Shown here one piece after another: positions 194 to 27,398 of a stretch of 47,203 bases of DNA. The position numbers and the translations under genes are program-made. The stretch's first letter is position 1; each line of letters opens with the position of its first letter. This DNA is from Bacteroides sp. GTDB taxonomy: Bacteria; Bacteroidota; Bacteroidia; Bacteroidales; SM23-62. The stretch lies in assembly GCA_011053095.1 (NCBI GenBank), contig DRHS01000011.1, forward strand, positions 1 through 47,203. The letters are read 5' to 3'. Below the pieces are notes generated by a model. It did no database searches. It was not told where the DNA came from and saw only the letters and a program-made list of their open reading frames with translations.

Positions 194-1585
194 ATGAAAA
201 ACAATCAAATTTCCAGAAGGTCATTTATTACTAAATCCGGACTGGTTACAGCCGGAGCTACAGTTGGCATGAGCGCGCTGGCAAATTCACGCATACTGGG
301 TGCAAACGAAAAAATCCGTGTTGGATTTATCGGAGTGGGAAACCGAGGTTCACAGTTACTGGGATGGTTTATGGATAATGATGATGTTGAAATAGCCGGT
401 TTAAGCGACGTTTATGAACCATATTTAGCACGTGACCGCTCGGCCGTTCACGAACGCTATCTTGCTCTTGATAAGGTTCCAAAGCTCGATGAGAAATTTC
501 CAAATAAAGTTAAGAGATATAACGATTTCAGGGAATTGCTCGAACAGAAAGATATTGATGCCGTTTGTATAGCCACTCCGGACCATTGGCATGCAGTTCA
601 GACCATTCAGGCCATGGATGCGGGAAAGGACATTTATATAGAGAAACCCCTTACAATTGTTCTCAAGGAGGGGAGGGCGATGGTTGATGCCCAAAAAAGA
701 ACCGGAAAAACGGTTGCTGTGGGACTCAATCGCCGGGGAGCCCCTGTATACCAGAAGCTATCGAAAGAAATTCTTGGTGGGAAAATTGGAAAAGTTTCTA
801 CTGCCCGTGCACTTAGAATCAGCAATATGACCCCGGATGGAATAGGGAAGATGAAACCTGAAGATCCGCCATCAGACTTTGACTGGGACATGTGGCTTGG
901 TCCTCGGCAATTCCGACCATACCAGTATAATATATCCCCTTACTCATTCCGTTGGTGGAAAGAATATTCTTCTCAGATGGGCAATTGGGGCGTTCATTAT
1001 ATGGATGTCCTTAGGTGGATGATGGGAGAAACTGCCCCGAAGTATATTACTGCTCATGGAGGTAAATATGCTGTCAATGATGACCGGGATATTCCTGATA
1101 CCATGGAGGTATTATTTGAATTTGAATCAAACAAGATTATACAGTTTAGCATACATGAAGCCAGCAGTGGTGGCGGTATTCAGGGCGGTGAAGTTGAACT
1201 CAACGGCACAAAGGCCAGCCTTATAGCCAATGAGAGAGGGTATAAATATGTTCCTGCACGAAAAGGACAATTCCAGAAATGGATAAGTCAGATTAAAGAG
1301 GAGGAGTATATACTAAAAGAGGATACCAGCCTGAAAGAGCGGGGGATTTCGGAGAACTCAAGCGTTAACCTCATCAGAAATTTTCTGGATTGCCTGAAAA
1401 CGGGTGATACACCATTGTGTACCCTTGAAGACGGACACAGGTCAACAAGCTTTGCACACCTGGCAAATATTGCCCTTGAAACGGGTCAGAGACTGGAATG
1501 GGATGCAGAAAAAGAATTATTTACAAATAGCAAAAAGGCCAACGAACTTCTACACTACGATTATCGTGAACCCTGGAAACTTTAG
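194..1585 (+). CDS. Exported Gfo/Idh/MocA-family NAD(P)-dependent oxidoreductase
   Basis: This is a 463-residue protein with a twin-arginine-type signal: SRRSF at residues 7-11, then a hydrophobic stretch to about 30. The Rossmann motif GVGNRG is at 47-52. The family EKP motif is at 150-152, where the lysine is the usual catalytic residue, and the GNWGVH segment ends at H268. The family oxidises or reduces sugar and inositol hydroxyls using a tightly held NAD(P). The Tat signal predicts folding with cofactor in the cytoplasm and export to the periplasm. It is first in a tight run: the next gene starts 6 nt after its stop. The exact substrate is unknown. Exported members of this family paired with isomerase-like TIM barrels act on 3-keto-glycosides in gut Bacteroides, so that chemistry is plausible here. 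Confidence 0.9.
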   Translation: MKNNQISRRSFITKSGLVTAGATVGMSALANSRILGANEKIRVGFIGVGNRGSQLLGWFMDNDDVEIAGLSDVYEPYLARDRSAVHERYLALDKVPKLDEKFPNKVKRYNDFRELLEQKDIDAVCIATPDHWHAVQTIQAMDAGKDIYIEKPLTIVLKEGRAMVDAQKRTGKTVAVGLNRRGAPVYQKLSKEILGGKIGKVSTARALRISNMTPDGIGKMKPEDPPSDFDWDMWLGPRQFRPYQYNISPYSFRWWKEYSSQMGNWGVHYMDVLRWMMGETAPKYITAHGGKYAVNDDRDIPDTMEVLFEFESNKIIQFSIHEASSGGGIQGGEVELNGTKASLIANERGYKYVPARKGQFQKWISQIKEEEYILKEDTSLKERGISENSSVNLIRNFLDCLKTGDTPLCTLEDGHRSTSFAHLANIALETGQRLEWDAEKELFTNSKKANELLHYDYREPWKL

Positions 1586-1591
1586 ACCATT

Positions 1592-2563
1592 ATGAAAGAC
1601 CGCAGAGAATTCATAAAAAAAACCGCACTTACCGGAATGGGACTTAGTCTGGCAGGATCCTCCCTGCTTAATGGATCTCCCGGATTAAGCCAACCTCCTT
1701 CTCTAAATGAGATCAAATTTCCGGTATGCACTTTTACAAAACCCCTTCAGTTTCTTGGATATGAGGATCTTGCGGATATACTGGCCGAATCTGGAATGGA
1801 CGGTGCCGACCTTGGTGTGAGAATGGGCGCCCATGTGGAACCGGAAAGGGTAGAGGATGAACTTCCCAGGGCTGTTGAGGTATTAGGGAGCAGGGGCATC
1901 CAGGTTCCCATGATGGTGACCCGGATAAATGATCCTGCAGATCCCACAGCTGAACCAGTCCTGAAAACAGCCTCTGAACAGGGTATAGGAATCTATCGTA
2001 TGGCATATTATAAATATGATTTACAGCTTGGAATTGAAAAGAACCTTGAGATAAACAAATCTAAACTTAAGGGACTCGCAGAGATCAATGAGAAACACAA
2101 AATCCACGGAGCCTACCAGAACCACAACGGCCGATATGTCGGTTCACCTGTATGGGACTTATGGATTCTTTTGAAAGACCTGGATCCTCAGTGGACTGGA
2201 TGTCAGTATGATATACGGCATGCTGTAGCGGAAGGTGCAAATTCATGGACCCTGGGAATTGAGCTTCTGAAAAAACATATCAAATGTGTCGTGGTAAAGG
2301 ATTTTAAATGGGAAAAGATAAATGGAAAATGGAAAATGGTGAATGTTCCCCTCGGAGAGGGAATGGTGGACTTTGATGAGTTTTTAGGGTATCTTAAGAA
2401 TTTTTCTTTTGAGGGACCCGTGGACATTCATTGTGAATACCCGTTTTTTGACAGTAAAGACAAGTCCCTGACCCTCGAACAGAAAAGGAAAGCAGCACTT
2501 TCGTATATGAAAAAGGATGTAGAATTCATTCGTCAGAAAATGATGGAATTTGGACTTAATTAA
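1592..2563 (+). CDS. Exported sugar phosphate isomerase/epimerase-like TIM barrel (AP endonuclease 2 superfamily)
   Basis: This is a 323-residue protein beginning MKDRREFIKK, a twin-arginine-like export signal followed by a hydrophobic segment to about residue 27. The rest resembles the xylose isomerase-like TIM barrel family. Likely metal ligands lie in YQNHNG (near 176), the YDIRHA segment (D206, H209), VKDF (near 235) and HCEY (E282). The family performs keto/aldose isomerisation, epimerisation or lyase reactions through a metal-bound enediolate. Despite the usual family name, an exported member is unlikely to use a phosphorylated substrate. It is 6 nt downstream of the Gfo/Idh gene and 10 nt upstream of the enolase-superfamily gene, so the three probably act in sequence on one sugar in the periplasm. 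Confidence 0.85.
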   Translation: MKDRREFIKKTALTGMGLSLAGSSLLNGSPGLSQPPSLNEIKFPVCTFTKPLQFLGYEDLADILAESGMDGADLGVRMGAHVEPERVEDELPRAVEVLGSRGIQVPMMVTRINDPADPTAEPVLKTASEQGIGIYRMAYYKYDLQLGIEKNLEINKSKLKGLAEINEKHKIHGAYQNHNGRYVGSPVWDLWILLKDLDPQWTGCQYDIRHAVAEGANSWTLGIELLKKHIKCVVVKDFKWEKINGKWKMVNVPLGEGMVDFDEFLGYLKNFSFEGPVDIHCEYPFFDSKDKSLTLEQKRKAALSYMKKDVEFIRQKMMEFGLN

Positions 2564-2573
2564 AACCAATCCC

Positions 2574-3965
2574 ATGTTAACAAGAAGAGAATTCGTAAAA
2601 AAAACCGGCACAATTGCAGCTGTCTCCTCCCTGGGACTGGCTTCAACTGTGTGTAAAACTAAAAACAGATCCATGCTACCAATATCGATACAGAATGTAG
2701 ATTCTAATTTTGAACGCGAACCCCTTATCAGGCCCTTTGGATTCAAGGGAGGGTATATGTCTGAGATATGGCAGACTATGAGCTGGATGCAGAGTACATC
2801 AGGGATCGAAAAAGTTGGATTGTGCACTCAGAATGTACTTTGGTCTGATGCAAAAGTATTTGGCGCTCACTCGGAGGCGGGTGGTAATTCAATTATGTAC
2901 CTGCTTACCGAAAGGGCAATGCAGATAGTGAAAGGGCAGAAATTCACTTCACCGGTTGAGCTTCTTGATACAATCCTTGAAGAGGTCTATAATTATGGGG
3001 TGCAGATTACAGGGAATCCTGATCTGAGAAAGACATTTGCCCTGAATGCCCTTGTCGGACTTGATAATGCCGCATGGTTGCTATACGCCGCTGAAAACGG
3101 GATTACAAATTTTGATGACCTTATCCCTGAAGAATTCAAGCCTGCTCTCTCTCATCATCATGAGAAAGTGGCAAGTATTCCCCTTATGGCCTATTCCATT
3201 CCCATAAGTGAAATCAAGGAGGCAGCAGACCAGGGATACTTTTTCATGAAGATAAAAATAGGCCAACCAGGTACCCAGGAAGAAATGTTGGAGAAGGATA
3301 AAGCCAGGTTGAGCGAGATCCATAATGCGATCGGCCATATGGAAACAGAGTATTCAGAAAACGGAAAACTTCCGTATTATTTTGATGCCAATGGAAGGTA
3401 CGAGGAGAAAGAATCCCTTCTCCGCCTGTTGGATCATGCAAAAAAGATCGGAGCATACGATCAGATAGCTGTTATTGAAGAACCGTTCCCGGAAGAAAAG
3501 GAAATTGATGTATCCGATATCGAGATAAGGCTTGCAGCAGATGAGTCAGCCCATACAGATGAAGATGCACTGAAAAGAATTGAAATGGGTTACAGTGCAA
3601 TCGCCTTGAAGGCAATTGCCAAAACCATGAGCATGACCATGAAGATCGCAAATGTTGCAAAAAAACATGATGTACCCTGCTTTTGTGCAGATCTCACTGT
3701 AAATCCGATACTGGTGGACTGGAACAAGGCAGTAGCTTCAAGGCTGGATCCTTTTCCGGGACTTGGAATCGGACTGCTTGAAACCAACGGGCACCAGAAT
3801 TATAAAAACTGGGAAACTATGTTCACATACCATCCATTCAACGGAGCTTCCTGGACACAAACCAAAAATGGTGTATTTGAACTTAACGATGATTATTACA
3901 AGAAGAGTGGGGGAATACTAACAGAATCGGATCATTATATGAAAATGTTTAATAAAAAGTCCTGA
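2574..3965 (+). CDS. Exported enolase-superfamily enzyme (mandelate racemase / muconate lactonizing type)
   Basis: The ATG at 2574 is preferred over an upstream in-frame TTG at 2550, because it follows the previous stop by 10 nt and puts the export signal MLTRREFVKK at the N-terminus (463 residues). Enolase-superfamily landmarks follow in order: FMKIKIG with K226/K228, the metal ligand D271 in FDAN, E303 in the IEEP segment, the AADES segment (D323/E324) and ALK (K346). The family abstracts a proton alpha to a carboxylate and catalyses racemisation, cycloisomerisation or dehydration of sugar acids. An exported enolase-superfamily protein is unusual. Its stop overlaps the next start (TGATG), which implies translational coupling to the DlgD-like reductase. 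Substrate unknown; a sugar-acid dehydratase or epimerase is the best guess. Confidence 0.85.
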   Translation: MLTRREFVKKTGTIAAVSSLGLASTVCKTKNRSMLPISIQNVDSNFEREPLIRPFGFKGGYMSEIWQTMSWMQSTSGIEKVGLCTQNVLWSDAKVFGAHSEAGGNSIMYLLTERAMQIVKGQKFTSPVELLDTILEEVYNYGVQITGNPDLRKTFALNALVGLDNAAWLLYAAENGITNFDDLIPEEFKPALSHHHEKVASIPLMAYSIPISEIKEAADQGYFFMKIKIGQPGTQEEMLEKDKARLSEIHNAIGHMETEYSENGKLPYYFDANGRYEEKESLLRLLDHAKKIGAYDQIAVIEEPFPEEKEIDVSDIEIRLAADESAHTDEDALKRIEMGYSAIALKAIAKTMSMTMKIANVAKKHDVPCFCADLTVNPILVDWNKAVASRLDPFPGLGIGLLETNGHQNYKNWETMFTYHPFNGASWTQTKNGVFELNDDYYKKSGGILTESDHYMKMFNKKS

Positions 3966-4981
3966 TGGCAGATACAAGCACACGCCGGATTGATTACAAG
4001 GAAATTAAAAACACCCTGTATGGTGTCCTTCTGAAGAATGGATTCTCGAAAGAGGATGCTGATATTTGTTCAGGTCTGTTCACAGATACCAGCCTTGACG
4101 GTGTTTACTCACACGGTTTGAACCGTTTCCCGCTTTTTATTGAGAATGTCAGGAAAGGTTTTGTCAAACCGGATAAGCAGCCAACCCTTAAACAATCTCT
4201 GAATAATTTTGAGAAATGGGATGGTAACCTGGGACCCGGAAATCTGAATGCAAAGTTTTGTATGGACAGGGCCATTAATCTGGCCAGGGAGTATGGAACG
4301 GGAATCGTTTCAATCGGAAACTCCAATCACTGGCTTAGAGGCGGGGCCTACGGTCTGCAGGCTGCAAATCAAAACTGCATCGGTATCTGTATGACCAATA
4401 CCATGCCCAATATGCCTCCATGGGGAGGTAAAAAAACAACCATTGGGAACAATCCGTTCATCATTTCAGTTCCACATAAACCCTACCCGGTTCTGCTTGA
4501 TATGGCCATGTCACAGTTTTCCTATGGGAAATTCGAGATTCTGAGAGAGCAGGGCAAAATGCTGCCCATGGACGGGGGATATAACAAGGATTTTGAGCTC
4601 ACCAATGATCCGGACCAGATCCTTGAATCAATGATGGCCCTGCCAATGGGTTACTGGAAGGGATCAGGACTTGCTATTATGATAGATATGCTTGTAGCTG
4701 TTCTTTCAGGAGGAATGACAACCTCAGAGATTGGAGAACTTGAAGCAGAGTATGGACTTTCACAGTTGTTTATTGCCCTGGATACTGAACAGTTGTCAAA
4801 TGTAGGTTTAGCTGATAGAATTATACAATCAATTATTGATTCTGTCAATAACACAAATCCGATCGAATCTGGTGGTAATGTATTTCACCCGGGTGAGCAA
4901 ACATATCTGAGAAGACTTGAGAATGAGAAGCTGGGCATTCCTGTGAATCCGGATAAGTGGAAACAAATTACAGAACTGTAG
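3965..4981 (+). CDS. dlgD: 2,3-diketo-L-gulonate reductase-like protein (Ldh/YiaK family)
   Basis: This is a 338-residue malate/L-lactate dehydrogenase-family (Ldh_2) protein without a signal peptide, so cytosolic. It closely resembles E. coli YiaK/DlgD by eye: VYSHG with the catalytic histidine at H50, NRFP just after it, WDG and NHW motifs, a PPWGGKK segment, and PMGYWKGSG in the C-terminal half. DlgD reduces 2,3-diketo-L-gulonate to 3-dehydro-L-gulonate with NAD(P)H. Its start codon overlaps the enolase-superfamily stop by one base. In context it would take up the chain after substrate oxidation outside the cytoplasm. The precise diketo acid used could differ from the E. coli substrate; family assignment is firm. 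Confidence 0.88.
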   Translation: MADTSTRRIDYKEIKNTLYGVLLKNGFSKEDADICSGLFTDTSLDGVYSHGLNRFPLFIENVRKGFVKPDKQPTLKQSLNNFEKWDGNLGPGNLNAKFCMDRAINLAREYGTGIVSIGNSNHWLRGGAYGLQAANQNCIGICMTNTMPNMPPWGGKKTTIGNNPFIISVPHKPYPVLLDMAMSQFSYGKFEILREQGKMLPMDGGYNKDFELTNDPDQILESMMALPMGYWKGSGLAIMIDMLVAVLSGGMTTSEIGELEAEYGLSQLFIALDTEQLSNVGLADRIIQSIIDSVNNTNPIESGGNVFHPGEQTYLRRLENEKLGIPVNPDKWKQITEL

Positions 4982-5049
4982 TTCTGCAGCATACGAAATA
5001 TTTTTTATAGCGAATATTGAGTTTATTGAATATTTAGGTTTATTGCATA

Positions 5050-6552
5050 ATGAAATTTTCAGTAAAATATATCGGGCTGTTTCTGGGTATTCTGTTTTTT
5101 CTTTTTATCCTTCTTTTTACTGACTTGAAACCAGGCCATCCTGAAGTCACCCGGACCCTCGCTGTTGCAGTGCTTATGGCTACCTGGTGGGTCACGGAAG
5201 CCATCCCTCTCTCTATAACTGCCCTCATTCCCCTGGTAGCTTTCCCTATGCTTGGGATACTGAATGGAAAGGAAGTCTCTTCAACCTATATCAATCATAT
5301 CATATTTATTTTTATCGGTGGATTCATTATGGCTCTTGCCATGGAAAAATGGAACCTCCATAAAAGAATTGCACTCAAAATACTCATGGTCATTGGGGTA
5401 AGTCCCGGGAGGATTCTGTTTGGTTTTATGCTGGCAACTGTATTTCTGTCAATGTGGATATCCAATACAGCTACCACCATGATGATGATCCCGATCGTGA
5501 TGTCTGTCATTGTCAGCCTGGAAGAAACTGTTAGTGGAAAAAACATGTCCAAATATGCCACCGGTCTGTTCCTGGCTATCGCTTACAGCGCTTCGGTGGG
5601 AGGGATGACCACTCTTGTGGGATCTCCCACCAACCTGATTTTCCCCAAGATACTGACCTTGATGTACCCTGGTGCCCCCGAAACATCCTTTGCAGACTGG
5701 TTCTTTTTTGCGCTTCCCATTACATTGATAATGTTTGCAGCCATATGGTTGGTGGTATATTTTATTTACCGGCCGAAAGAAAAATGGACGGGCATCGATC
5801 AGCAACATTTCAAAGAACAGTACCGGGAACTTGGAAGAACAAGTTTCGAGGAAAAAATAGTTCTCTCCTTGTTTGTTTCTCTGGCCCTGCTATGGATCTT
5901 TCGTGCCGGTATTGAATTTGACAATTTTCGCATTCCCGGTTGGTCCTCCCTTTTCGGACATCCGGAATACATAAATGATGGCACTGCAGCCATGCTTATT
6001 GGCATTATTCTCTTTATAATACCAACACGATCAAAAAGTGCAAAGAGGATAATGGACTGGAAGACTGCACATAAACTACCATGGAACATCGTTCTATTAT
6101 TCGGCGGTGGGTTTGCCCTTGCCAGGGGATTTCAGTCCAGCGGCCTGGCTCTCTGGTTTGGTGAACAACTTTCCTGGACCCAATCCATCCACCCCCTGTT
6201 GATTCTTCTGGCTGTTGTGACCCTGATGTCATTCCTTACTGAACTAACATCAAATGTGGCCTCTACACAAATGCTGCTGCCTGTTTTTGCAGCGCTTGCC
6301 GTTACCAGCGGGAATAATCCTATTTTATTCATGATACCGGCCACTCTTGCATCATCACTCGCCTTCATGCTGCCGACTGCAACCCCGCCAAATGCAATCA
6401 TTTTTGGTACTGATAAAATACGGATTGGGACCATGATAAGGACCGGCTTCCTTTTAAATATGCTGGGAATAATTGTTGTGGTCATAGTAACCTGGCTGTC
6501 AGGGGAAAAGCATTTCGATATTGTACCCGGGGTGATGCCTGATTGGTTATAG
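5050..6552 (+). CDS. DASS/SLC13-family sodium:carboxylate symporter
   Basis: This is a 500-residue polytopic membrane protein with 11 or more hydrophobic segments. The N-terminal WWVTEAIPLSITALIP segment (about 38-53) is characteristic of SLC13/CitT transporters. Two inverted-repeat sodium and substrate motifs are present: SNTATTMM followed by GSPTN, and SNVASTQML followed by ATPPN. The family moves di- or tricarboxylates or sulfate with sodium. It lies 68 nt after the DlgD-like gene on the same strand, so a sugar-acid or other dicarboxylate product of the exported enzymes is a reasonable cargo. Its 3' end is 4 nt from the convergent aldolase gene. Confidence 0.9.
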   Translation: MKFSVKYIGLFLGILFFLFILLFTDLKPGHPEVTRTLAVAVLMATWWVTEAIPLSITALIPLVAFPMLGILNGKEVSSTYINHIIFIFIGGFIMALAMEKWNLHKRIALKILMVIGVSPGRILFGFMLATVFLSMWISNTATTMMMIPIVMSVIVSLEETVSGKNMSKYATGLFLAIAYSASVGGMTTLVGSPTNLIFPKILTLMYPGAPETSFADWFFFALPITLIMFAAIWLVVYFIYRPKEKWTGIDQQHFKEQYRELGRTSFEEKIVLSLFVSLALLWIFRAGIEFDNFRIPGWSSLFGHPEYINDGTAAMLIGIILFIIPTRSKSAKRIMDWKTAHKLPWNIVLLFGGGFALARGFQSSGLALWFGEQLSWTQSIHPLLILLAVVTLMSFLTELTSNVASTQMLLPVFAALAVTSGNNPILFMIPATLASSLAFMLPTATPPNAIIFGTDKIRIGTMIRTGFLLNMLGIIVVVIVTWLSGEKHFDIVPGVMPDWL

Positions 6553-6556
6553 TTTC

Positions 6557-7438
6557 TCAGTCCAGTTTCTTCAGCAATGCCAGCAGCTCTTTATTTCTGA
6601 TTTCCTCAAGCGGAGCAAGCGGCATCCTTGCAGGGCCGCCATACAGTCCAATGCTGTCTATCGCAGACTTTAAAGCCGGTATTCCCCATTGTCTGGTCAC
6701 AAAGGTGTTCAGGGCAATGACAGATTTCTGAATTTTTACGGCCTCTTTGAGCTTACCCTGTAAGAATGCATTCATAAGGTCAAGGCATTTCTGCGGGCGG
6801 ATATTGGCCAGGGCAAGGATCCCACCGGCAGCTCCGGCCTCCAGGGCAGGAAATAAGAAATTCGCCGATCCTATAAGGGTTTGGAAATCATCGCCGGTTT
6901 CCTTGATCACCCGGCTCATTTTTTCCATATCACCTCCTGAGTCCTTTAATCCGATGACATTGGAATGAACTGAAATCCGCAGGATTAATTCTGCATCCAT
7001 ATCCACTCCTGAATTGGCTGGCATATTATAAATAATGACCGGTATGGGTGATTCATCCGCAACAGTATGATAATGATTCACCAGAACATCGGGAGTCATC
7101 TGGCCTTTGTAATAAAAAGGATTTAGCACAAGCGCGGCATCTGCTCCGTGTTTTCCGGCGAGTCTTGTCAGCCGGACAGTTTCCCTGGTTGATTGTCCCC
7201 CGCAACCAGCTATCACAATCTTCCCGTAAGGCACAGCTTCTCTGGCAATTGCATAAACCTCTTCTTTTTCCTTGTCTTCGAGCATAACCAGTTCACCGTT
7301 TGAACCAAGGACCAACACACCAGTAAGGTCATATTTCATGAGAAATTCAATATTCTCGCGGATCATTTCCGGGTAGAGTTCCTCATTGACATGAAAGGAG
7401 GTGGGAAGTGGAGGAATTATTCCCTCAAGATTTATCAT
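6557..7438 (-). CDS. Dihydrodipicolinate synthase-family aldolase, HOGA1-like (4-hydroxy-2-oxoglutarate aldolase type)
   Basis: This is a 293-residue class I aldolase of the DapA/NanA family, with no signal peptide. The Schiff-base lysine is K165 in GLKDSGGD and the partner tyrosine is Y137 in IIYNMPANSG; GSNGE near residue 46 is the pyruvate carboxylate loop. The PANSG and GLKDSGGD motifs and the C-terminal LYGGPARMPL segment resemble the 4-hydroxy-2-oxoglutarate aldolase subgroup (human HOGA1) more than true DapA. Such enzymes cleave a 4-hydroxy-2-oxo acid to pyruvate and an aldehyde. It is convergent with the DASS transporter gene (4 nt apart) and divergent from the nucleotidyltransferase gene. 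It could finish the sugar-acid pathway; a 2-keto-3-deoxy sugar acid aldolase is the main alternative. Confidence 0.88.
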   Translation of the reverse strand: MINLEGIIPPLPTSFHVNEELYPEMIRENIEFLMKYDLTGVLVLGSNGELVMLEDKEKEEVYAIAREAVPYGKIVIAGCGGQSTRETVRLTRLAGKHGADAALVLNPFYYKGQMTPDVLVNHYHTVADESPIPVIIYNMPANSGVDMDAELILRISVHSNVIGLKDSGGDMEKMSRVIKETGDDFQTLIGSANFLFPALEAGAAGGILALANIRPQKCLDLMNAFLQGKLKEAVKIQKSVIALNTFVTRQWGIPALKSAIDSIGLYGGPARMPLAPLEEIRNKELLALLKKLD

Positions 7439-7551: not shown

Positions 7552-8388
7552 ATGGAAGTACAAAAGGCTGTAATTACAGCTGCCGGACCCAACCAGAGGA
7601 AACTCCCTCTTCAGACTTTAATTGATAAGGAGGGCATAGAGAAGTCTTTCCTTGAACTTCTTATTGAAGAGGTACTTGCTGCTGGCATCAATGATATCTG
7701 TGTTGTTGTGCAACCGGGTGATGAATTGCCTTATGGCCAGGTCATAGGTGATCATGTACATGGTGTTACCTTTGTACATCAGAAAAAACCACTCGGATAC
7801 GGCCATGCATTATATTCTGCCAGCTCATTTACAGGCAGGGATGCATTCCTCCATCTTGTAGGAGACCATCTTTATGTGAACCGCAGCAGCGAATCCTGTG
7901 CAAAGCACCTTGTTGATTTTGCTGCAAAGCATGAATGTACAGTCTCCACCGTCCAGCCAACCCGTGAAAGCCTGATACCTAATTTTGGAGTAGTAGGAGG
8001 CAGCCGGATGCAGGGAGTGAAAGACGTTTATCAGGTTGAGACTGTAATCGAGAAGCCCACACCTACTGTAGCTGAACAAAAGCTGCTTGTACCCGGACTC
8101 AGGGCCGGACATTACCTCTGTTTCTTTGGTATGCATGTTCTGACTCCGGCAGTTATGGACATTCTGGGTACTGAACTTAAGTCGAGCAATAAAGCCAGCC
8201 TCTCAGCCGCTCTGAACCGGATTGCCCAATCGGAACAATACCTTGCGCTCGAAAAAAATGATTTGAGATACGATATGGGAGAAAAATACGGATTGTTAAA
8301 GGCACAGCTGGCACTTGCCCTGTACGGGAAGGACAGAGACAGGATACTTAATGAACTGGTTGAATTCTTTGCACTGAAGGATGAGTAA
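7552..8388 (+). CDS. GalU-like sugar nucleotidyltransferase with an altered nucleotide-binding signature
   Basis: This is a 278-residue GT-A fold nucleotidyltransferase related to glucose-1-phosphate uridylyltransferase (GalU). Recognisable parts are the N-terminal [20 protein letters not shown] (metal-binding aspartate region), NFGVVGG, VIEKP and the AGHYLCFFG segment. The canonical GxGTRxLPxTKxxPK signature is changed: AGPNQR replaces AGxGTR, the LP is kept, and the TK-PK lysine is not evident. It may therefore use another nucleotide or sugar, or be a non-catalytic partner. Its last 8 bases overlap the start of the 1,108-residue kinase/pyrophosphorylase gene, so the two are almost certainly co-translated and work in one nucleotide-sugar pathway. 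Confidence 0.8.
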
Positions 8389-11300
8389 ATTAATCGAAAT
8401 CATACTATCTGATAAGGCTGAAATAAGGGATCAGTCACTTGATAAATTCTGTCGCACAGCATCAACAGAAGAACTACTTGAGGAATGTGATCAGCTTGAT
8501 TCATTTCGCAGGAAGAGCGAAAACCTGTACCAAAAGGTTCGGGCCCTGTTCTTTTTGTATGCCATCCACCGCTTCCATATTTCAATGAGGGCGGAGATAA
8601 GTCATGAGGGAAGGATTCCCTATGATGCATACGAGCATATGCTTAAACGAAGGTTTGAGCAGGCCATAGATATATTTACCAGGATACAAAAGGACAAGGG
8701 TCCAAATGAAGGTATATCAAGCGGCTTGTCAGAGGCTTTCCACAGACTGGCTTTCCAGACCCTGGCTGACCAGGTGCGATACAGTGTACGCCATACACTT
8801 GGCAACCAGTGGATGTTTCGCTGCGGGCATCCACATGATCAACCGCTTGAAATACGGAAAGAGCTGCTGGAACCCGATTCTGAGACCGGACTGTTTCCCG
8901 TTCTCAATGAGTCTACTCCTGTCAGAATGGATATAACTCACAGTGGTTGGAGTGATATATTTTTTCTGGGAATGGATTTTCCGGAAGGAGCAAAGGTACT
9001 GAATATTTCTGTAAACCTTGAAATCCGGCAGAAAGGCAAATCTTCCGATCCAGAACCTCCGATAAATTCCTATTTCAGGGTTATTGACCAGCCTGTTTTA
9101 AGATTAATTAGCATAGACCTTGAATCGAGTGTGGAAATCACCAGGCTGGATGAGGTCTTTGATTATGCAAAGGATTATTTGGGACTCCTGAAAGCGGCAG
9201 TAATTGCCAGCGGGATCATTCCGCCGGGTATGGAAGGTTCGGGTATGCCCCTGTCTGACCTTCTCAAGAAAATGCTTGGTCCGGGGAAAGGAATTGAACT
9301 GGTAAGCCATGTTAACAATATTCCCAAGGGATCACGTCTGGCGGTTTCTACAAATCTTCTTGCTTCCCTTATATCCGTTTGTATGCGTGCCAGCGGACAG
9401 ACATCCTCCCTCACCGGTTCTCTTGCCGAGGAAGAAAGACGTCTTGTAGCTGCACGGTCAATCCTAGGTGAATGGCTGGGTGGTTCAGGTGGTGGCTGGC
9501 AGGATTCAGGGGGAATCTGGCCTGGAATCAAACTTATCAGGGGTGTACGGGCAGGGGAAGGAGATCCTGAATATGGAAAAAGCAAAGGAAGACTGCTGCC
9601 CGATCATACCATATTGACCCGGGAAGAGGTTGGGGATTCGACCAGGCAGAAGCTGCAGGATTGTCTGGTAATGGTTCACGGGGGAATGGCCCAGGATGTG
9701 GGACCCGTACTGGAGATGGTCACCGAAAAATACCTCCTTAGATCCGAATCTGAATGGAAGGCCAGGATGCAGGCAATCAGGTTTTTTGATGATGTAGTAG
9801 AAAAGCTGAAAGAAGGAGATATTAAATCAATTGCTGCTTTTACCCAGAAGAACTTTACTGGTCCAATAAGAACTATAATTCCCTGGACGACAAATATATA
9901 TACTGAAACACTTATACAAAAAGTTGAGAAAGAATTTGGTGGAAAATTCTGGGGATTCTGGATGATGGGAGGTATGTCCGGTGGAGGAATGGGATTCATA
10001 TTCGACCCTTCAGTGAAACAGAAAGCTCAGGATCGTCTGCAGGAAATCCTGTCTGAAACAAAAAAGATATTTGAATCCGCCATCCCTTTTGCAATTGAAC
10101 CGGTTGTCTATGATTTCAGCATTAATAGCCAGGGATCAGTGTGCAGAATGCTTAATAAGGATCTTGCCATGATGCCTCAGAAATATTATATACTGATGTC
10201 TCCGGCATTGATAAAACGTGAAATTACGGATCTGACACAGGGCCAGCGGCTGGAATTGCAAAACCTGGGACAACAATCTAAGGATAACGAGGCCTATGGA
10301 GATTTTGTAAGGGGACTGTATGAAAGGATGATCCCCAGGTCAGAACAAACCACTGAAATTGAACTGACACTGGAACAACTCCTTGACTCGTACGGATTTG
10401 ACCCGGAAGTTCACCAGCAAATCAAGTCAGACCTCAAATCAGGCAGGATAGGTCTTTCGCAGAACCGCCTGCCTGTAACCAGTACAATACGGGATGTAGA
10501 ACCAGGTGAAATATCAGTAATTGCTGAAGGAGATGAGGGAATATTTCATAGGATGGGACTGGAAGCCCTCAAGGCAGGAAAGCTTGCCATTGTTACCCTT
10601 GCCGGCGGGGCAGGCAGCAGGTGGACACAGGGTGCCGGGGTAGTTAAAACCATCCATCCATTTGCCAGATATTCCGGCAAGCACCGAAGTTTCCTGGAAT
10701 TGCATCTTGCCAAAAACAGATCCGTCGCTAAGATCTGTGGCAGGGAAATCCCACATATTATTACCACCAGTTTCCTGACACATGATGCAATCCAAAATTT
10801 CCTTGACTATTCTGCCTTCTTTGGGCATGCTGGTCAAACATACCTTTCACCCGGCCGATCCATTGGACTAAGGCTAATTCCGACAGAACGGGAACTCAGG
10901 TATCTGTGGGAAGTGCTCCCACAACAAATCCAGGATGAGCAGGAACAAAAAGTCATTGAGAGTCTTCATAACGCATTAATAAACTGGGCAAAAGAAACAG
11001 GAGAGGGAGAGGACTATATTGACAACCTTCCTCATCAGTGTGTTCATCCGGTAGGCCATTGGTACGAGATACCCAATATGATGATGAACGGTACATTGGA
11101 AAAATTACTGAAAGAAAACCCGGGAGTGGAGCACCTTATGGTTCATAATGTGGACACCCTGGGTGCTAATGCAGATCCTGCTGTTTTCGGTCATCATTTA
11201 TCGAAAGGAAATGCAATGACAGCGGAGGTTATTACGAGGCGACTGGATGACAGGGGAGGGGGACTCGCAAAAGTTAACGGGAGGATACAAATTGTTGAGG

Positions 11301-11707
11301 GACTCGCATTGCCCGATGAAAAAATTGAATTTGACCTGAGCTTTTACAATTCCAATACATTCTGGCTGGATATCAACAAAATCCTTGAATCTTTTAGGCT
11401 TGATCGAAAAGAACTGGGTAATCCTGAAAAAGTAAGAGAATCTGTGAGGATGATGGCAAGACGAATGCCTACCTATATAACCGTCAAAGATGTAAAGAAA
11501 CGCTGGGGCGTGGGACAGGAGGACATTTTTCCGGTTGTACAATTCGAAAAACTATGGGGAGATATGACGGCCCTTTCAAACCTTGATTCCGGTTACCTGG
11601 CGGTTCCGCGTATGAGGGGACAACAACTTAAGGAAATTTCCGAGTTAGACGGCTGGCTAAGGGATGGATCTGCTGATTATATTGAGAAACTTTGTGACCT
11701 TGAATGA
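8381..11707 (+). CDS. Bifunctional GHMP sugar kinase / UDP-sugar pyrophosphorylase-like fusion protein
   Basis: This is a 1,108-residue cytosolic protein in three parts. Residues 1 to about 175 are helical and unrecognised. Residues about 180-560 look like a GHMP kinase of the fucokinase/HddA type: [12 protein letters not shown] at 181-192 (motif 1), a poorly matching [15 protein letters not shown] segment (motif 2), [11 protein letters not shown] from 368, and GGMSGGGMG near 530-538 (motif 3). Residues about 700-1108 match UDPGP-type pyrophosphorylases: LAGGAGSRW at 740-748, a lysine at 756, and HNVDTLGAN at 922-930 (the NxDNLGA region). The protein could phosphorylate a free sugar at C1 and transfer UMP (or another NMP) to it. 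The domain order is the reverse of Bacteroides Fkp (pyrophosphorylase then fucokinase). It overlaps the upstream GalU-like gene by 8 nt. The sugar is unknown. Confidence 0.8.
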
Positions 11708-18138: not shown

Positions 18139-19569
18139 TTATAATTTATAATACTCTTCCCACCCTTTACGTGGAGGTTCGCCGACGAGCATCTGGTTTG
18201 CCCAGTCATTGTTTGTAATTTGCTTGGTCGTCCGGTCGAAAATCAATTTAGTACTCATTCTTTGTGCCATTACACCCAGGGTGAAGACCTGGCTCAATGG
18301 ACCGGCTATATCGAATGAAGACCGGCATTTTTCCTGACCTTTACAGGCCAGTAGAAAGTTCTCAAAATGGTCCGATGGACTTTCGGGAACTTCCGGCAAC
18401 ATTGATTTCATTTCCTCTGCTTTCGATTCAGGAATGATCGAGAGGGTTCTGCTATGAGATCTCCCCTTGAAAATCAACTCCTTGCTGTAGATGATTTTAC
18501 CAGGATTCAGTTTGGCCGGTCTCAGAGCTCCATCGCTTGGAGGAGGAATATCAGGATCAGCTTGCGAAATACCATATCCTTCCGGAAGGGGTGGTTGATT
18601 ATCAATTCCATCATACCAGGTTATATCTAGAGCCGGCATATTGCCACGCTCAGGAAATTTAAATACAAGGGTGGACGAAAACGGAAAGAAAAATGAATTA
18701 TGTCCATCAAGCAGGAGTGGATTAACCTCATATGGCAGACCCAGTTCCAGGAATTCGTGTGCCGTATCCAGGATGTGGGCTCCCCAATCACCTAATGCGC
18801 CCATTCCGAAATCATACCAGCAACGCCATTGACCTTCCACAAAATCCTCGTGGTAATCATGATGTTGAGCGGTGTTAAGCCATGTATCCCAATCAAGTGT
18901 TTCAGGTATTGTTTGTCCGTCGGGAAATTTGGTCATACGTGGATCAAATGGATGCCAGCGCCGTTTACTGTTCATATGGGCCGTAATAGCTGTAACATCT
19001 TTGATAATGCCTGCTTCCTTCCAGGCTTTAAACTGGAAATAATTGGCTCCTGAATGTCCCTGATTCCCCATTTGGGTTGCAACATTATATTTTTTGGCAC
19101 CCTTCATCATCAATTCGATCTCGTTAAATGTTCTAGCCATTGGCTTTTCGACATAAACATGTTTGCCAAGTGACATTGCCAGCATGGTAATTGGAAAATG
19201 TGAGAAATCTGGAGTACCAACACTTACCGCATCAATTTTATCACCCATTTTATCAAACATCTCCCTGAAATCCTGAAAGCGCGGGACATCCGGAAGCATC
19301 TTCAGGACCCCCAAAGTATGATCAGCACCCATATCCACATCACACAATGCTACAATATTTGCAAGACCGGTTTCATGTAATGATTTAGTAATACTGCCAC
19401 CCCTGTGACCGATACCAATACAGGCCAGGTTGACTTTTTCGCTGGGAAGGACAGAATTCTTTCTTGCAAAAATTACCTCATTAGGTATAATTGATATACC
19501 TCCTACAGTTAATAAACTTTTCTTGAGGAAATCCCGGCGTTGATTAGTTTCATTCATGTTTCGGTTCAT
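18139..19569 (-). CDS. Exported Gfo/Idh/MocA-family oxidoreductase (second copy)
   Basis: This is a 476-residue protein with a twin-arginine-type start (NQRRDFLKKS), then a hydrophobic segment. The Rossmann motif is GIGHRGGS, the catalytic-lysine motif is VEKPMA, and GDWGAH carries the conserved histidine. It belongs to the same family as the protein at 194-1585 but to a different branch, as the C-terminal halves differ. It sits 17 nt after the FG-GAP gene and 31 nt before a sulfatase gene, within the glycan operon. This suggests oxidation of a sugar in the periplasm as part of polysaccharide breakdown. A start at the second ATG (19557) is equally possible. Confidence 0.88.
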   Translation of the reverse strand: MNRNMNETNQRRDFLKKSLLTVGGISIIPNEVIFARKNSVLPSEKVNLACIGIGHRGGSITKSLHETGLANIVALCDVDMGADHTLGVLKMLPDVPRFQDFREMFDKMGDKIDAVSVGTPDFSHFPITMLAMSLGKHVYVEKPMARTFNEIELMMKGAKKYNVATQMGNQGHSGANYFQFKAWKEAGIIKDVTAITAHMNSKRRWHPFDPRMTKFPDGQTIPETLDWDTWLNTAQHHDYHEDFVEGQWRCWYDFGMGALGDWGAHILDTAHEFLELGLPYEVNPLLLDGHNSFFFPFSSTLVFKFPERGNMPALDITWYDGIDNQPPLPEGYGISQADPDIPPPSDGALRPAKLNPGKIIYSKELIFKGRSHSRTLSIIPESKAEEMKSMLPEVPESPSDHFENFLLACKGQEKCRSSFDIAGPLSQVFTLGVMAQRMSTKLIFDRTTKQITNNDWANQMLVGEPPRKGWEEYYKL

Positions 19570-19586
19570 TTTATTTCACAATTGTT

Positions 19587-20519
19587 TTACTTATTCCATC
19601 CAGGTAAAGATACTGAAGCCTGGTAATTGGAATAATTATATAGTTCATTTCTTTTCGGTTTATATAATTTCCCGGGGATTGGGTTATCATGCTGAGTATA
19701 TACCCATATTTCATTAGGATCCCATACCACAATTTCATCACGGCAATCACCGGTAATATCCAGCACTGCGTTGCACATATCCGGATGACCGTCATCAGGA
19801 AAATCCATCACCTTTCTTCCCCATCCATCATAAGCCCCACCTTCATCTACATTTGCATTGAGAACATAGAACTCTTCGGAGCGACCTGTCCAGTTCAAAG
19901 GCAAACACATACTTCCATATTGCATGGGTTCAAAATCGTGGTAAATATTCCCCTCTGAATCATATAAATGGATGATTCCCTGGTTCCCCCAGAAATTTAT
20001 TGAAACTGCCTCGAGTCCGGGTTTGTCATCGCGGAAATTTGCGACTGCAGGATTTTGTACATGCCCTATATAATGGTGCTTTAAAATATTTCCCTTAATA
20101 TCTGTAAAAATCATTCCTTCATCACTTGCTGAACAAAGTAACCGTGGCTCCTGATCATCATTAAATTTAACAATTGCCGCACCATCAGCATGGTCGTTAA
20201 TTCTATCATCAAACAGAGTGTACCCCATCATTAATTCATCTTTGCCATCTTCATCAACATCATATGCATAAGGGTAGTGTCCGGTATTACACTCATTTTT
20301 CCATAAGACTTGCAGTTTGTTATCCAGTGCCCAGACATGCTTGTATCTGTCTTTAATAATTATGTCACCATCATAGCCCTTGCCTTGCAAATCACAAAAA
20401 TAGAAGCAGTCTCCCAGGATGCGTTCAAAAATATTTTGTCCTGAAGCAGTAGGCTTACCTCCAGGGGTTAGTGGGGTAGGTGCCTGATATTTTGTTTTTC
20501 CGGTTTTCCTTTTTGCCAC
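19587..20519 (-). CDS. 3' part of a frameshifted FG-GAP / rhamnogalacturonan-lyase-like gene
   Basis: This 310-codon frame continues the protein at 20468-21475 in the -1 frame. Its first codons (20519 to about 20468) overlap the upstream frame. It contains propeller-type repeats with acidic calcium-binding-like loops (YAYDVDEDGKDEL, VLDITGDCRDEI), a DIIIKDRYKHVWALD segment, and a C-terminus ending NYQASVSLPGW, which resembles the end of rhamnogalacturonan lyase (PL11-like) proteins. It has no signal peptide of its own, so as written it cannot be a separate exported protein. The likely cause is loss of one base near the A-rich stretch at 20484-20518, or a sequencing error. Confidence 0.7.
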   Translation of the reverse strand: MAKRKTGKTKYQAPTPLTPGGKPTASGQNIFERILGDCFYFCDLQGKGYDGDIIIKDRYKHVWALDNKLQVLWKNECNTGHYPYAYDVDEDGKDELMMGYTLFDDRINDHADGAAIVKFNDDQEPRLLCSASDEGMIFTDIKGNILKHHYIGHVQNPAVANFRDDKPGLEAVSINFWGNQGIIHLYDSEGNIYHDFEPMQYGSMCLPLNWTGRSEEFYVLNANVDEGGAYDGWGRKVMDFPDDGHPDMCNAVLDITGDCRDEIVVWDPNEIWVYTQHDNPIPGKLYKPKRNELYNYSNYQASVSLPGWNK

Positions 20520-21475
20520 AGAATATCTCCATCAAATGTCATGGCTGTAAGGCAGCTCAATTCTGTGTTACGGTCTTTGTGTCCGTGATGTACAACCTGT
20601 CCGATTAATACATCAATTTCACCATCTCCATTCAGATCACCAAAGCGCAAATTCCTACCAACTCCAAAATCATTGGTTTTTATACTTTTCCATAAAACGG
20701 GTCTGGGATTGTTATCAATTAACTTTTGTTCTGCAAGATCAGCCTCCCTGCGCAGGTATTCATATTCAGATTTATCATTCTGATTGCTTGTAATTTCAAC
20801 AGGATTAAAGTAGGCTGGTCCATCTGCAAGAAAACCGATTTTGCCTTTTTTGTAAGTTGTGTCCGAAACATTAAACTGCGGTCCGGATTCTATGCTTGCA
20901 GATATCTGGTCTGCAAGAAGCTCAATTCTCACTTTTATATCATCTTCAATATTATACGAAAAATGTTCTGATGCTAAAACTTTCTCAAATGGCTTATGAT
21001 AACCTGTTGCATGTTTTACCATTTTAAGAAAAGCTGTGTCCTGTCTTACACCTAATATATAGTAACAACGGTCATTGTTGTATCTAAAGACTACTCCGCA
21101 CTGTTTCTCTTTATCCAAGGAGCTGAATGAGGTAAGTATGGTATAATTTTCCCAGAACAGGTCTCCTGCCACCACCATCGGATGCCAATGGTTATTTTTA
21201 TTGACTCCATTTTGCAATAGAACCTTCTTTTCATTTACTTTCCGGACATACCAGGATGCTGGTAAATTAGATCTGAAGGTTGAAATAGCCCAATTTCCTT
21301 TTGGTTTGGCTTCGTGCAGATAATGATATTCGGTATGAGCACCGACGTCGCTGCCCAGAGGTCCACGTGGCATCACGGAATAATCGTCCGTAAACAATAA
21401 TACCTGATCGTCTTCCTGATTACATGAGGTTATTATAAGGGAAGAAATAAAATATAGGCATATAAGTTTTTTCAT
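20468..21475 (-). CDS. 5' part of a frameshifted FG-GAP / lyase-like lipoprotein
   Basis: This is 335 residues from the ATG at 21475. That start overlaps the upstream stop as ATGA and places MKKLICLYF with lipobox TSC at the N-terminus, better than the ATG at 21490. A concanavalin-like (LamG/DUF1080-type) domain spans about 20-230 (CGVVFRYNNDRCYYILG). It is followed by a first FG-GAP-like blade, FGDLNGDGEIDVLIG, near residue 290. The frame then runs off at GKPEKQNIRHLPH, while the expected continuation is found in the -1 frame from about 20519. Together the two frames would encode about 640 residues of a secreted propeller protein, possibly a polysaccharide lyase. Confidence 0.7.
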   Translation of the reverse strand: MKKLICLYFISSLIITSCNQEDDQVLLFTDDYSVMPRGPLGSDVGAHTEYHYLHEAKPKGNWAISTFRSNLPASWYVRKVNEKKVLLQNGVNKNNHWHPMVVAGDLFWENYTILTSFSSLDKEKQCGVVFRYNNDRCYYILGVRQDTAFLKMVKHATGYHKPFEKVLASEHFSYNIEDDIKVRIELLADQISASIESGPQFNVSDTTYKKGKIGFLADGPAYFNPVEITSNQNDKSEYEYLRREADLAEQKLIDNNPRPVLWKSIKTNDFGVGRNLRFGDLNGDGEIDVLIGQVVHHGHKDRNTELSCLTAMTFDGDILWQKGKPEKQNIRHLPH

Positions 21476-22812
21476 AATGTTTTGTGCCATTGTTCCATAT
21501 CAACAATATAGAGCTGTCTCGCTCCCTGGTAGAGACCCTGAAGAGAAACCTTTTTATAATCCCTGCTCCAACATGGGTGTCCGTCGACCCGCAAGGCCTT
21601 GACAGGTCCCTTAAATTCCTCGGAATTCACGGTCGGAACAGTGCATATCCTTTCAATCCGGTCCGTATGCACATCAAGTAAAAGCAGGTCCGTCGTGGCT
21701 GATCCGTCTTCATGATATTCCCTTTGATCCGTTATAACATACCGACCCTCCGGCTCAATACTGGGATGGCCGGAACTGTTAAATGTTTCGCTTAGCACCT
21801 TGAAATCAGTACCATCATACTTGAACTGGCAAACACGTGTTGTATTACCATCGGGTTTCATATTGCGGATTAGGTGTATCCCGTCAGGATGCCAGTTGGG
21901 ATGTCCTCCCAGGGGATAGTCCCAAACCGGATCTCGCCCGGTAAACTGAACGTCACTTCCATCAGAATTCAGTGTAAAGACCATGGGATTTCGTCCATTG
22001 GTGCCGTCAAATCCAGGGAAGATACAGCGCAGTACCTGCAAAATTCGTGTACCCTGTGGATTATATTTAGAGTGCCAGAAGTAGAATGTTCCGTCTTGCC
22101 GGGGCATGGATTCCGGAACACGTGACGCAACATCTGCTACAGAGTACAGGAGGATACTTTCACCGGTATCCAGGTCGGTTCGCCAGACTCCTTCATCCTC
22201 AGTTGCCTCTTTGGATAAGCTCAGTGGATTTTCAAGCTCTCTGGAAGGCATTCCGTAACCCTGCTGTGTCACATTAAGCAACTCCAGAGGAAATCCAATT
22301 CCGTATTTGCCATCCCGGGATACATTGTACATCGACCGTGAATACGCCTTTGTAGTGCCGTTGGACAAATCCAGCTGAATCATCACAGCCTTCCCGTCTA
22401 TCAGGTCGTTTGTATAGATAAACTGATCCGAACCGCCCCACTGTACGTTGGTTCCGGTCTGGAAACCCCATGTTTTTGTTGAAAAAACGGTTTCAATCGT
22501 CTGCTCCTCCAGGTCTATCACACACACTTCTGCTACATCTCCCAAAACCGGGATATGATCCTGAAATGGTAATTTGCTGACTGCCAGATAACGTCCTGAT
22601 GGACTAAAGGGTGTAACGTCAAAATAGGTGTGTACGTAATACCCGTCTTCCGGAGTTACCCGAATCACCGGAGCAAGCTGACCCTCTGACTGATGTGTTT
22701 TGAAATCGTAGCTACGCTTTTTTCCTGCTGGCCTTTGACAGGACCAAATACCTGGCATAATTAAGATGGCCGAAAATCCGGCTGATGTATGAAGAAAGTG
22801 ACGACGATTCAT
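21472..22812 (-). CDS. Exported TolB-like beta-propeller protein, possible polysaccharide lyase
   Basis: This is a 446-residue protein with an export signal starting MNRRHFLHTS and a possible lipobox WSC near 24. The body is a WD40/TolB-like propeller with repeats such as FSPSGRYLAVSK, WHSKYNPQGTRIL, GHPNWHPDGIHL, GHPSIEPEGRYV and GHPCWSRD. Oligogalacturonate lyases (PL22) and ulvan lyases (PL24/PL25) share this fold and use His, Tyr and Arg in similar loops, so a lyase role is plausible. The neighbouring GH105 would act on the unsaturated products. It overlaps the frameshifted FG-GAP gene by 4 nt and is 18 nt downstream of a sulfatase gene. The enzyme class is not proven from sequence. Confidence 0.65.
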   Translation of the reverse strand: MNRRHFLHTSAGFSAILIMPGIWSCQRPAGKKRSYDFKTHQSEGQLAPVIRVTPEDGYYVHTYFDVTPFSPSGRYLAVSKLPFQDHIPVLGDVAEVCVIDLEEQTIETVFSTKTWGFQTGTNVQWGGSDQFIYTNDLIDGKAVMIQLDLSNGTTKAYSRSMYNVSRDGKYGIGFPLELLNVTQQGYGMPSRELENPLSLSKEATEDEGVWRTDLDTGESILLYSVADVASRVPESMPRQDGTFYFWHSKYNPQGTRILQVLRCIFPGFDGTNGRNPMVFTLNSDGSDVQFTGRDPVWDYPLGGHPNWHPDGIHLIRNMKPDGNTTRVCQFKYDGTDFKVLSETFNSSGHPSIEPEGRYVITDQREYHEDGSATTDLLLLDVHTDRIERICTVPTVNSEEFKGPVKALRVDGHPCWSRDYKKVSLQGLYQGARQLYIVDMEQWHKTL

Positions 22813-26159: not shown

Positions 26160-27398
26160 TTAATCATTGGCAATTACAGCTTTTTCCAGTTTCTCATATA
26201 GAATACTTGCCAATATAAATGGACCTACTCCTTTGGGATCATTGTCACGTTTTTTTTCATTTATATAATACTCATAGGTCCCATCCCTGTACGGATCTCC
26301 TCCAAGTCCCGCAACAGCACAAACAGGCGAGAGTGCAATTCCCCCATCTTCCCGCTCTATTATGAGGTTGTCGATTATTCCCTGATAGGCTTTTTCAGCA
26401 TGTTCTAAGTAAGAATCATCAATATAATTCATCATTACGGCTTTCAAAAGAAAGTAAGTAAACATTGAACTTACCGAACCTTCAAGGTAGTTTCCTTCCC
26501 TGTTTCCCTGGTCAAGTACCTGGTACCAGATTCCGGATTCCGGATCCTGAACTTTAATTATTGCCTTTGCCATTCTTTTTGCGATTTCAATGACCTCATC
26601 TCTTTTGGAATTCTGATCAAGGTAATCAAGTATGTCAACCAGGGCCATTCCGTACCAGCCCATACCTCTTCCCCAGAAATGGGGAGCGAGGCCCGTCTCA
26701 TTATTGGCCCATTTCTGCTCCCGGCTTTCGTCCCATGCATGGTACAAAAGACCAGTCTCCGTGTCTCTTGCCATTTCTTCCATGAGAATAATCCAGTCGG
26801 CTGCATCAACCACACTTTCAGGTTCGTCATACTGTTTCCCATAGCGGGCATAAAAAACCGATCCCATATAAAGTCCATCAAGCCACATTTGGTGGGGATA
26901 ACGTTTTTTATGCCAGAATCCCCCGGCATTGGTTCTGGGATGATTGTTTAGTTGTTCCCGGAGTGTTTGGAGAGCGGTCTCGTATCTGATATCACTGGTT
27001 TCTTCATACAATGTAAACAGCATTTTTCCCGGGTTGATCTTGTCAATATTATAATCCTCCATCTTATAACCATAGATAGTTCCGCTCTCATCGATCATAG
27101 TATCAGCATAATCTTGGGCATATTTCAGATAGGCCGGATTTTCCGATTCTTTCCACAATGCCAGAAACGCATCACACATAAGTCCTTTGGTATATGCCCA
27201 TTTTATATTCTCTGATTCCTCCATTCTCCACATTTGGGGATAATCCTTCATTATCGTTTCGGCCATACGGACAGACCAATCCTGAGAGGGTTCAATGGCA
27301 GTTTGCTTCTCAGAAGACTGTTTGCATGACAATTGCAGGGCCATAGAGCATACTATTAATCCTCCGATAAATGAAATCATTATTTTTTTCTTGTTCAT
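26160..27398 (-). CDS. GH105/GH88-type unsaturated uronyl hydrolase, lipoprotein
   Basis: This is a 412-residue alpha/alpha-barrel glycosidase. Lipoprotein signal ends at LSC (C25). PHQMWLDGLYMG contains the catalytic aspartate D174, equivalent to the YteR aspartate, and WGRGMGWYGMAL and EGNYLEGSVS are conserved GH105 segments. GH105 and GH88 hydrate the 4,5-unsaturated uronic acid left at the non-reducing end by polysaccharide lyases, releasing a keto-uronate. Its presence argues that a lyase acts in this pathway and that the substrate contains uronic acid (ulvan, rhamnogalacturonan or glycosaminoglycan type). It is located between two sulfatase genes. Confidence 0.9.
   Translation of the reverse strand: MNKKKIMISFIGGLIVCSMALQLSCKQSSEKQTAIEPSQDWSVRMAETIMKDYPQMWRMEESENIKWAYTKGLMCDAFLALWKESENPAYLKYAQDYADTMIDESGTIYGYKMEDYNIDKINPGKMLFTLYEETSDIRYETALQTLREQLNNHPRTNAGGFWHKKRYPHQMWLDGLYMGSVFYARYGKQYDEPESVVDAADWIILMEEMARDTETGLLYHAWDESREQKWANNETGLAPHFWGRGMGWYGMALVDILDYLDQNSKRDEVIEIAKRMAKAIIKVQDPESGIWYQVLDQGNREGNYLEGSVSSMFTYFLLKAVMMNYIDDSYLEHAEKAYQGIIDNLIIEREDGGIALSPVCAVAGLGGDPYRDGTYEYYINEKKRDNDPKGVGPFILASILYEKLEKAVIAND

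Follow-up and report, generated by a model that had tools for sequence, protein, structure and literature searches.

What is the function of three apparently exported sugar-modifying enzymes that are encoded side by side, with a cytosolic reductase and an anion importer directly behind them? This question is raised by contig DRHS01000011.1 of the Bacteroides sp. assembly GCA_011053095.1 (a Bacteroidota genome with a size of 5.0 Mb and a completeness of 83%), of which positions 1 to 47,203, here termed the window, were analyzed. A first-pass annotation of this DNA had read the five genes at 194–6552 as one route, in which a sugar acid is oxidized and dehydrated outside the cytoplasm before import. 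The evidence gathered here points to the first three genes, encoding a Gfo/Idh oxidoreductase, a TIM barrel and an enolase-superfamily enzyme, as the conserved unit, and we consider the chances evenly balanced that this trio, exported through the twin-arginine translocation (Tat) system, acts on carboxylated sugars in the periplasm, uronic acids or their glycosides from acidic or sulfated polysaccharides being the likeliest substrates.

The five genes and the conservation of the trio

The five genes, all on the forward strand, encode a Gfo/Idh/MocA oxidoreductase (194–1585; PF01408) with the EKP motif and distal His present, a xylose-isomerase-like TIM barrel of the AP_endonuc_2 family (1592–2563; PF01261, agreeing with the AlphaFold2 (AF2) fold), an enolase-superfamily enzyme (2574–3965, from an ATG; PF13378), a cytosolic Ldh_2 family reductase of the DlgD/YiaK type (3965–4981), and a DASS Na+-coupled anion importer (5050–6552). 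Gaps of 6 nt and 10 nt separate the first three genes, the DlgD start overlaps the enolase stop by 1 nt, which suggests translational coupling, and 68 nt lie between the DlgD and DASS genes. Open reading frame calling reproduced the frames and gaps of the first-pass annotation coordinate for coordinate, and its family calls agree with Pfam and NCBIfam. A TTG at position 2550 was judged a less likely enolase start and rejected, as homologues begin at the twin-arginine (RR) segment.

The first three proteins each possess an RRxF motif followed by a hydrophobic stretch (MKNNQISRRSFITKSG in Gfo/Idh, MKDRREFIKKTALTG in the TIM barrel and MLTRREFVKKTGTIA in the enolase), and the host genome encodes TatC. 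The RR motif is conserved in relatives, being found in 40 of 43 Gfo/Idh proteins, 45 of 48 TIM barrels and 58 of 78 enolases, so that its occurrence is not a matter of chance; where it is missing from Gfo/Idh and TIM proteins, the frame is truncated or fragmentary or encodes a single-R variant. The features expected of Tat substrates are thus all present, in line with the export originally proposed, and the three enzymes are predicted to be exported.

The relatives were collected by scanning a single genome of each species, which gave 483; the best 80 of these were kept. By title, they belong to Bacteroidota, Verrucomicrobiota, Kiritimatiellota, Lentisphaerota, Planctomycetota, Neomarinimicrobiota, Latescibacterota, KSB1 and Acidobacteriota, these titles being labels of metagenome-assembled genomes, a few of them clearly misbinned. 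Two loci, L048 (labelled Thalassobius) and L054 (Accumulibacter), encode Bacteroidota-like enolases and are probably misbinned contigs. The enolase is rare: within the order, 7 of 295 genomes encode it, and in a phylum sample 6 of 395, host included. As judged by tblastn with the proteins of the window, most of the Bacteroidota loci keep the Gfo-TIM-enolase order, as do those from Neomarinimicrobiota, KSB1 and Acidobacteria, while Opitutaceae retain TIM-enolase without this Gfo/Idh. In Opitutaceae loci L070, L075, L079 and L081, TIM-enolase is flanked by a conserved protein of approximately 150 aa (MKVSFTxKEYxRLLEL...), this type of protein occurring near the module in 9 loci; another flanking protein, of approximately 472 aa, resembling an enolase-superfamily N-terminus, occurs near the module in 7 loci and is not seen at greater distance. 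No Pfam family matches either protein.

As to the remaining two genes, tblastn recognized DASS behind the trio in no other locus examined, and the same is true of DlgD, the nearest case being a homologue of 41% identity 8 kb away in L084. The idea of a conserved five-gene set was therefore abandoned: the five-gene operon is private to the host among the genomes examined, and the genome-neighbourhood search suggested at the outset bears out a set of three genes but not one of five. Behind the trio, the closest relatives possess a GH29 gene, in L025, or a sulfatase gene along with a URO-D-like one, in L026; further relatives possess an SDR with an MFS transporter of the D-galactonate family and an RbsD/FucU-like gene, a TRAP DctM permease (L032), or an SSS transporter with RraA. 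The trio-SDR-MFS arrangement of L027, L029 and L031 parallels the trio-reductase-anion importer layout of the host, and the uptake and reduction roles may be filled elsewhere by these SDR and MFS, TRAP or SSS genes.

The enolase-superfamily enzyme

The enolase matches MR_MLE_C (PF13378) with 47.5 bits against a cut-off of 29.4. A single-sequence search of the PDB returned no match, while a profile search of the same database reached proteins of the MLE subgroup at E 9e-4. The AF2 model (pLDDT, the predicted local distance difference test, 91.0) has as its top Foldseek match the dipeptide epimerase 3jva (E 5e-19), other matches including the NSAR/OSBS-like 1wue, 3,6-anhydro-L-galactonate cycloisomerase (5xd7-9) and talarate/galactarate dehydratase, with identities to the fold matches of 14–17%. 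No variation is seen among 38 relatives at K226xK228, D271, E302, D323 and K346; the last four align with their counterparts in 3s5s, K346 corresponding to the K of NIK in that structure, and the KxK was assigned from sequence only. The protein thus displays the attributes of the MLE subgroup, to which dipeptide epimerases and NSAR/OSBS belong: an MR_MLE C-terminal domain and fold, a strand-2 KxK, three acidic metal ligands (D/E/D) and a strand-6 Lys. It differs from known members in its approximately 16% identity, in its Tat signal, often lipoprotein-like, and in its ties to Gfo/Idh and TIM genes. The cycloisomerase is likewise an enolase-superfamily enzyme acting on a sugar acid of marine polysaccharides and has a comparable fold score, but is only 15–16% identical; it is cytosolic and acts after an aldehyde dehydrogenase. 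Overall, the host protein apparently represents a distant, uncharacterized branch with an intact MLE-type site, and no description of this branch or of its role in such a module was found in the literature and libraries searched, most of the subscription literature being outside their coverage.

A two-lysine site of the MLE subgroup suits 1,1-proton transfer (epimerization), syn-elimination or cycloisomerization. Known aldarate dehydratases, of the MR subgroup, have a His-Asp dyad on the late barrel strands; in the host enolase, going by alignment, Lys346 appears to take the strand 6 position instead, and a conserved D373 follows. The dehydration of the original proposal is thus one of several candidate reactions, the residues fitting the others equally well. 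The dipeptide epimerase as the top fold match, along with the restriction of DlgD and DASS to a single locus, would be expected if no pathway were shared, that is, if the reductase and importer had landed behind an unrelated exported trio whose enolase serves as an epimerase for peptides or for another acid. We find this quite improbable, given the overlap of the DlgD and enolase genes, the uronate context in which both the trio and DlgD are found elsewhere (see below), and the fact that no peptide genes were seen around the trio.

The cellular location of the enolase appears to have varied. Signal-less enolases number 20, about a quarter of the relatives and mostly from Opitutaceae, while their TIM partners still bear signals, which weakens the case for an enolase step outside the cytoplasm. 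On an IQ-TREE phylogeny, signal state changed seven times, at least six of these changes being forced by well-supported branches. A lipobox-like motif follows the RR in 23 of 59 RR-bearing enolases (10 of them strict) and in none of 89 Gfo/Idh and TIM proteins; the host enolase has a Cys, but in a non-canonical setting. These patterns point to a functional signal and to an enolase able to act in the periplasm or the cytoplasm alike, as would fit a late position among the steps. The repeated gain or loss of its signal, while the TIM barrel remains exported, offers a natural handle on which step occurs on which side.

Possible uptake and reduction steps and the uronate-polymer context

The reductase scores 405 bits with NF009750 (3-dehydro-L-gulonate 2-dehydrogenase; cut-off 316) and 301 bits with PDB 1nxu, and is thus a member of the same NCBIfam equivalog as yiaK (DlgD), of the 2,3-diketo-L-gulonate reductase pathway in Escherichia coli. 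Unlike in E. coli, no other yia or ula gene and no TRAP importer is found here, the importer being a DASS protein, which scores 296.6 with TIGR00785 (cut-off 198.6) and is nearest to the di/tricarboxylate transporters SLC13A2/A3/A5, closer to the mammalian ones than to VcINDY. Homologues of DlgD (39–49% identity) are encoded in 21 other genomes of a Bacteroidota sample of 296; in one (L133), the gene is found beside KduI and a KduD-like SDR, and in Maribacter a homologue is reported to be induced along with sugar-acid enzymes on arabinogalactan (PMC11036162). Convergent with the module, on the reverse strand, is a gene for a DHDPS-family lyase/aldolase (6557–7438; Pfam and NCBIfam), whose closest solved kin is human 4-hydroxy-2-oxoglutarate aldolase. 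It possibly encodes a downstream step; its membership in the module is uncertain.

This aldolase relative and the di/tricarboxylate affinities of DASS, along with the D-galactonate family of the MFS partners elsewhere and the sugar-acid enzymes 5xd7-9 and 2pp1 among the enolase fold matches, agree with an oxidative aldarate route, in which Gfo/Idh would oxidize C1 of a uronic acid to an aldaric acid or lactone, the enolase would form a 2-keto-3-deoxy-aldarate by dehydration or lactone opening, and DASS import would be followed by DlgD and the aldolase. Such a route is unlikely in our view: it leaves the conserved TIM barrel unexplained, provides no evident acceptor for the exported NAD(P)H arising from net oxidation, relies on DASS and aldolase genes not conserved with the trio, and sits poorly with the MLE-type lysines of the enolase, a His-Asp dyad being the feature of known aldarate dehydratases.

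Exported Gfo/TIM pairing is of a known kind. The 3-keto-glycoside pathway of Bacteroides BT2156-BT2160 (NF058561/NF058563) and the GlycDH/OGE/HYD operon of Agrobacterium, which also pair a Gfo/Idh protein with an AP_endonuc_2 TIM barrel, serve as precedent (PMC10628242). The best PDB kin of the host Gfo/Idh are the C3-dehydrogenases 8tdf/8tdh and 8tdi, the latter a glucuronide-3-dehydrogenase; the nearest folds to the TIM barrel (AF2 pLDDT 91.9) are Art22, SCO6571, UlaE and D-tagatose 3-epimerase, with AtHYD, a 2-hydroxy-3-keto-glucal hydratase, further down. Genes for 3-keto-disaccharide hydrolases (PF06439) are present near the trio in 7 loci, mostly just upstream of Gfo/Idh. One could thus envision redox-neutral 3-keto-glycoside cleavage, with Gfo/Idh oxidizing C3, the TIM barrel eliminating and/or hydrating, Gfo/Idh re-reducing, and the enolase as an add-on for uronides. 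However, both Gfo/Idh and TIM proteins are far from these systems in sequence, no PF06439 gene adjoins the trio in the host window, Opitutaceae keep TIM-enolase without this Gfo/Idh, the enolase is foreign to the known pathways, and PF06439 is also found fused to a PL38 lyase (PMC13027841), so that its presence may be a sign of a lyase locus and not of keto-glycoside chemistry. We judge this explanation unlikely as well.

The genes surrounding the trio in relatives suggest acidic substrates. A tally of 109 same-strand neighbours includes sulfatases (8), 3keto-disac_hyd (8), Alginate_lyase PF05426 (5) and GH88 (3). The PF05426 lyase gene directly precedes Gfo/Idh in L035, L037, L041 and L058; in L032 it lies upstream of the enolase, a few genes away. 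Enzymes of the PF05426/PL38 type cut alginate, glucuronan or glycosaminoglycans, one of them with a fused 3keto-disac_hyd domain (PMC13027841). In Hyunsoonleella L035 (5216–6100, 11882–12769) and in L041, exported-type glyoxalase/VOC-fold proteins flank the lyase and the trio on both sides. Genes for GH88 and KduI are found upstream of the trio in L029 and L031, the order in the latter being SusD-like, GH88, KduI, Gfo, TIM, enolase, SDR, MFS and RbsD-like; KduI/IolB is also present in L036, L042 and L047, in the last of these downstream, along with a gluconate-5-dehydrogenase-like SDR and a D-galactonate-family MFS. The KduI/KduD pathway for unsaturated uronates, with GH88, is thus a neighbour of the trio in L029, L031 and L047, but the trio is not part of that pathway as known.

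For the reading of the trio as acting on carboxylated sugars, the sequence of reactions that we infer would start with Gfo/Idh, with its NAD(P) held through Tat export, oxidizing a ring hydroxyl. The TIM barrel would enolize next to the resulting ketone, leading to elimination, hydration or epimerization, and the enolase, by means of the KxK/K lysines and Mg2+, would remove the proton alpha to the carboxylate, for C5 epimerization or syn-elimination. The anionic product would then be imported, in the host by DASS, and reduced by the cytosolic DlgD. Speaking for this reading are the trio order kept within and beyond the phylum, the correlated divergence of the three proteins, the retained RR signals, the lipobox-like motifs and the TatC gene, the invariant catalytic residues of the enolase, the adjacent uronate-polymer genes, the anion transporters and reductases behind the trio in several loci, and the setting of DlgD elsewhere. 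The proposal of export followed by import thus has partial support, from the Tat-type signals, the uronate setting, and the anion importer and cytosolic reductase behind the trio; the order of steps, the dehydration and the substrate in that proposal are conjectural.

A number of observations weigh against this reading. Most loci have no uronate gene within three genes of the trio. Uronate-polymer genes (PF05426, GH88, KduI/IolB) do cluster next to the module, with 15 counted at up to three genes' distance and 2 beyond it (p=0.0009), but these markers were picked after inspection of the families present, so that this enrichment is only suggestive. For sulfatases and GH genes, GH2 and GH29 included, near-versus-far enrichment is not significant. 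In L134 and L136–L139, the enolase gene stands by itself or among unrelated genes, and Gfo/Idh and TIM may thus be dispensable for its function. The correlated divergence of the three proteins (pairwise distances, r 0.57–0.67; permuted maximum 0.30) counts in favor of a common unit, but may partly stem from shared species history. Finally, the host Gfo/Idh scores 128.9 bits with the glycoside 3-dehydrogenase family of BT_2158 (NF058561), far under the cut-off of 750, and its assignment to that family was rejected.

Exported modules of redox and TIM barrel enzymes are a recently understood alternative to glycosidases. A third exported enzyme acting at the carboxylate, encoded in several phyla and often close to uronate lyases and GH88, would broaden this chemistry to include acidic glycans, for instance glucuronans, alginate and glycosaminoglycans. 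That this amounts to an undescribed periplasmic route for uronic acids, transforming them prior to uptake and bypassing or complementing KduI/KduD, and built on a new enolase branch with at least six changes of location between periplasm and cytoplasm, is a tentative proposal, somewhat on the doubtful side.

Other genes of the host

In family searches, the host genome proved rich in Gfo/Idh genes (39 matches) and has 7 matches to GH88; no PF05426 lyase was found in this genome, at 83% completeness. One GH88 unsaturated uronyl hydrolase gene is located within the window (26160–27398, reverse strand), in a sulfatase-rich cluster forming a separate operon. A second Gfo/Idh gene (18139–19569), with no TIM or enolase partner, is part of a sulfatase/GH2/GH88 cluster, and adjoining it (19587–22812) are genes for three proteins with little or no Pfam match. 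At 7552–11707, a nucleotidyltransferase gene (278 aa) overlaps one for a 1108-aa protein. The first half of the latter resembles fucokinase/fucose-1-phosphate guanylyltransferase, in its guanylyltransferase part, while UDPGP is matched by the C-terminal part, so that the protein has the look of a double, and unusual, sugar-nucleotide enzyme. Between the genes for a DEAD-box helicase and for a GH29 fucosidase lies one (31690–32673) for a protein of 327 aa, whose Ntox23 (bacterial toxin 23) domain scores 108 bits, and an IS91-type transposase (Y2_Tnp, Zn_Tnp_IS91) is encoded at the contig end (45777–46919).

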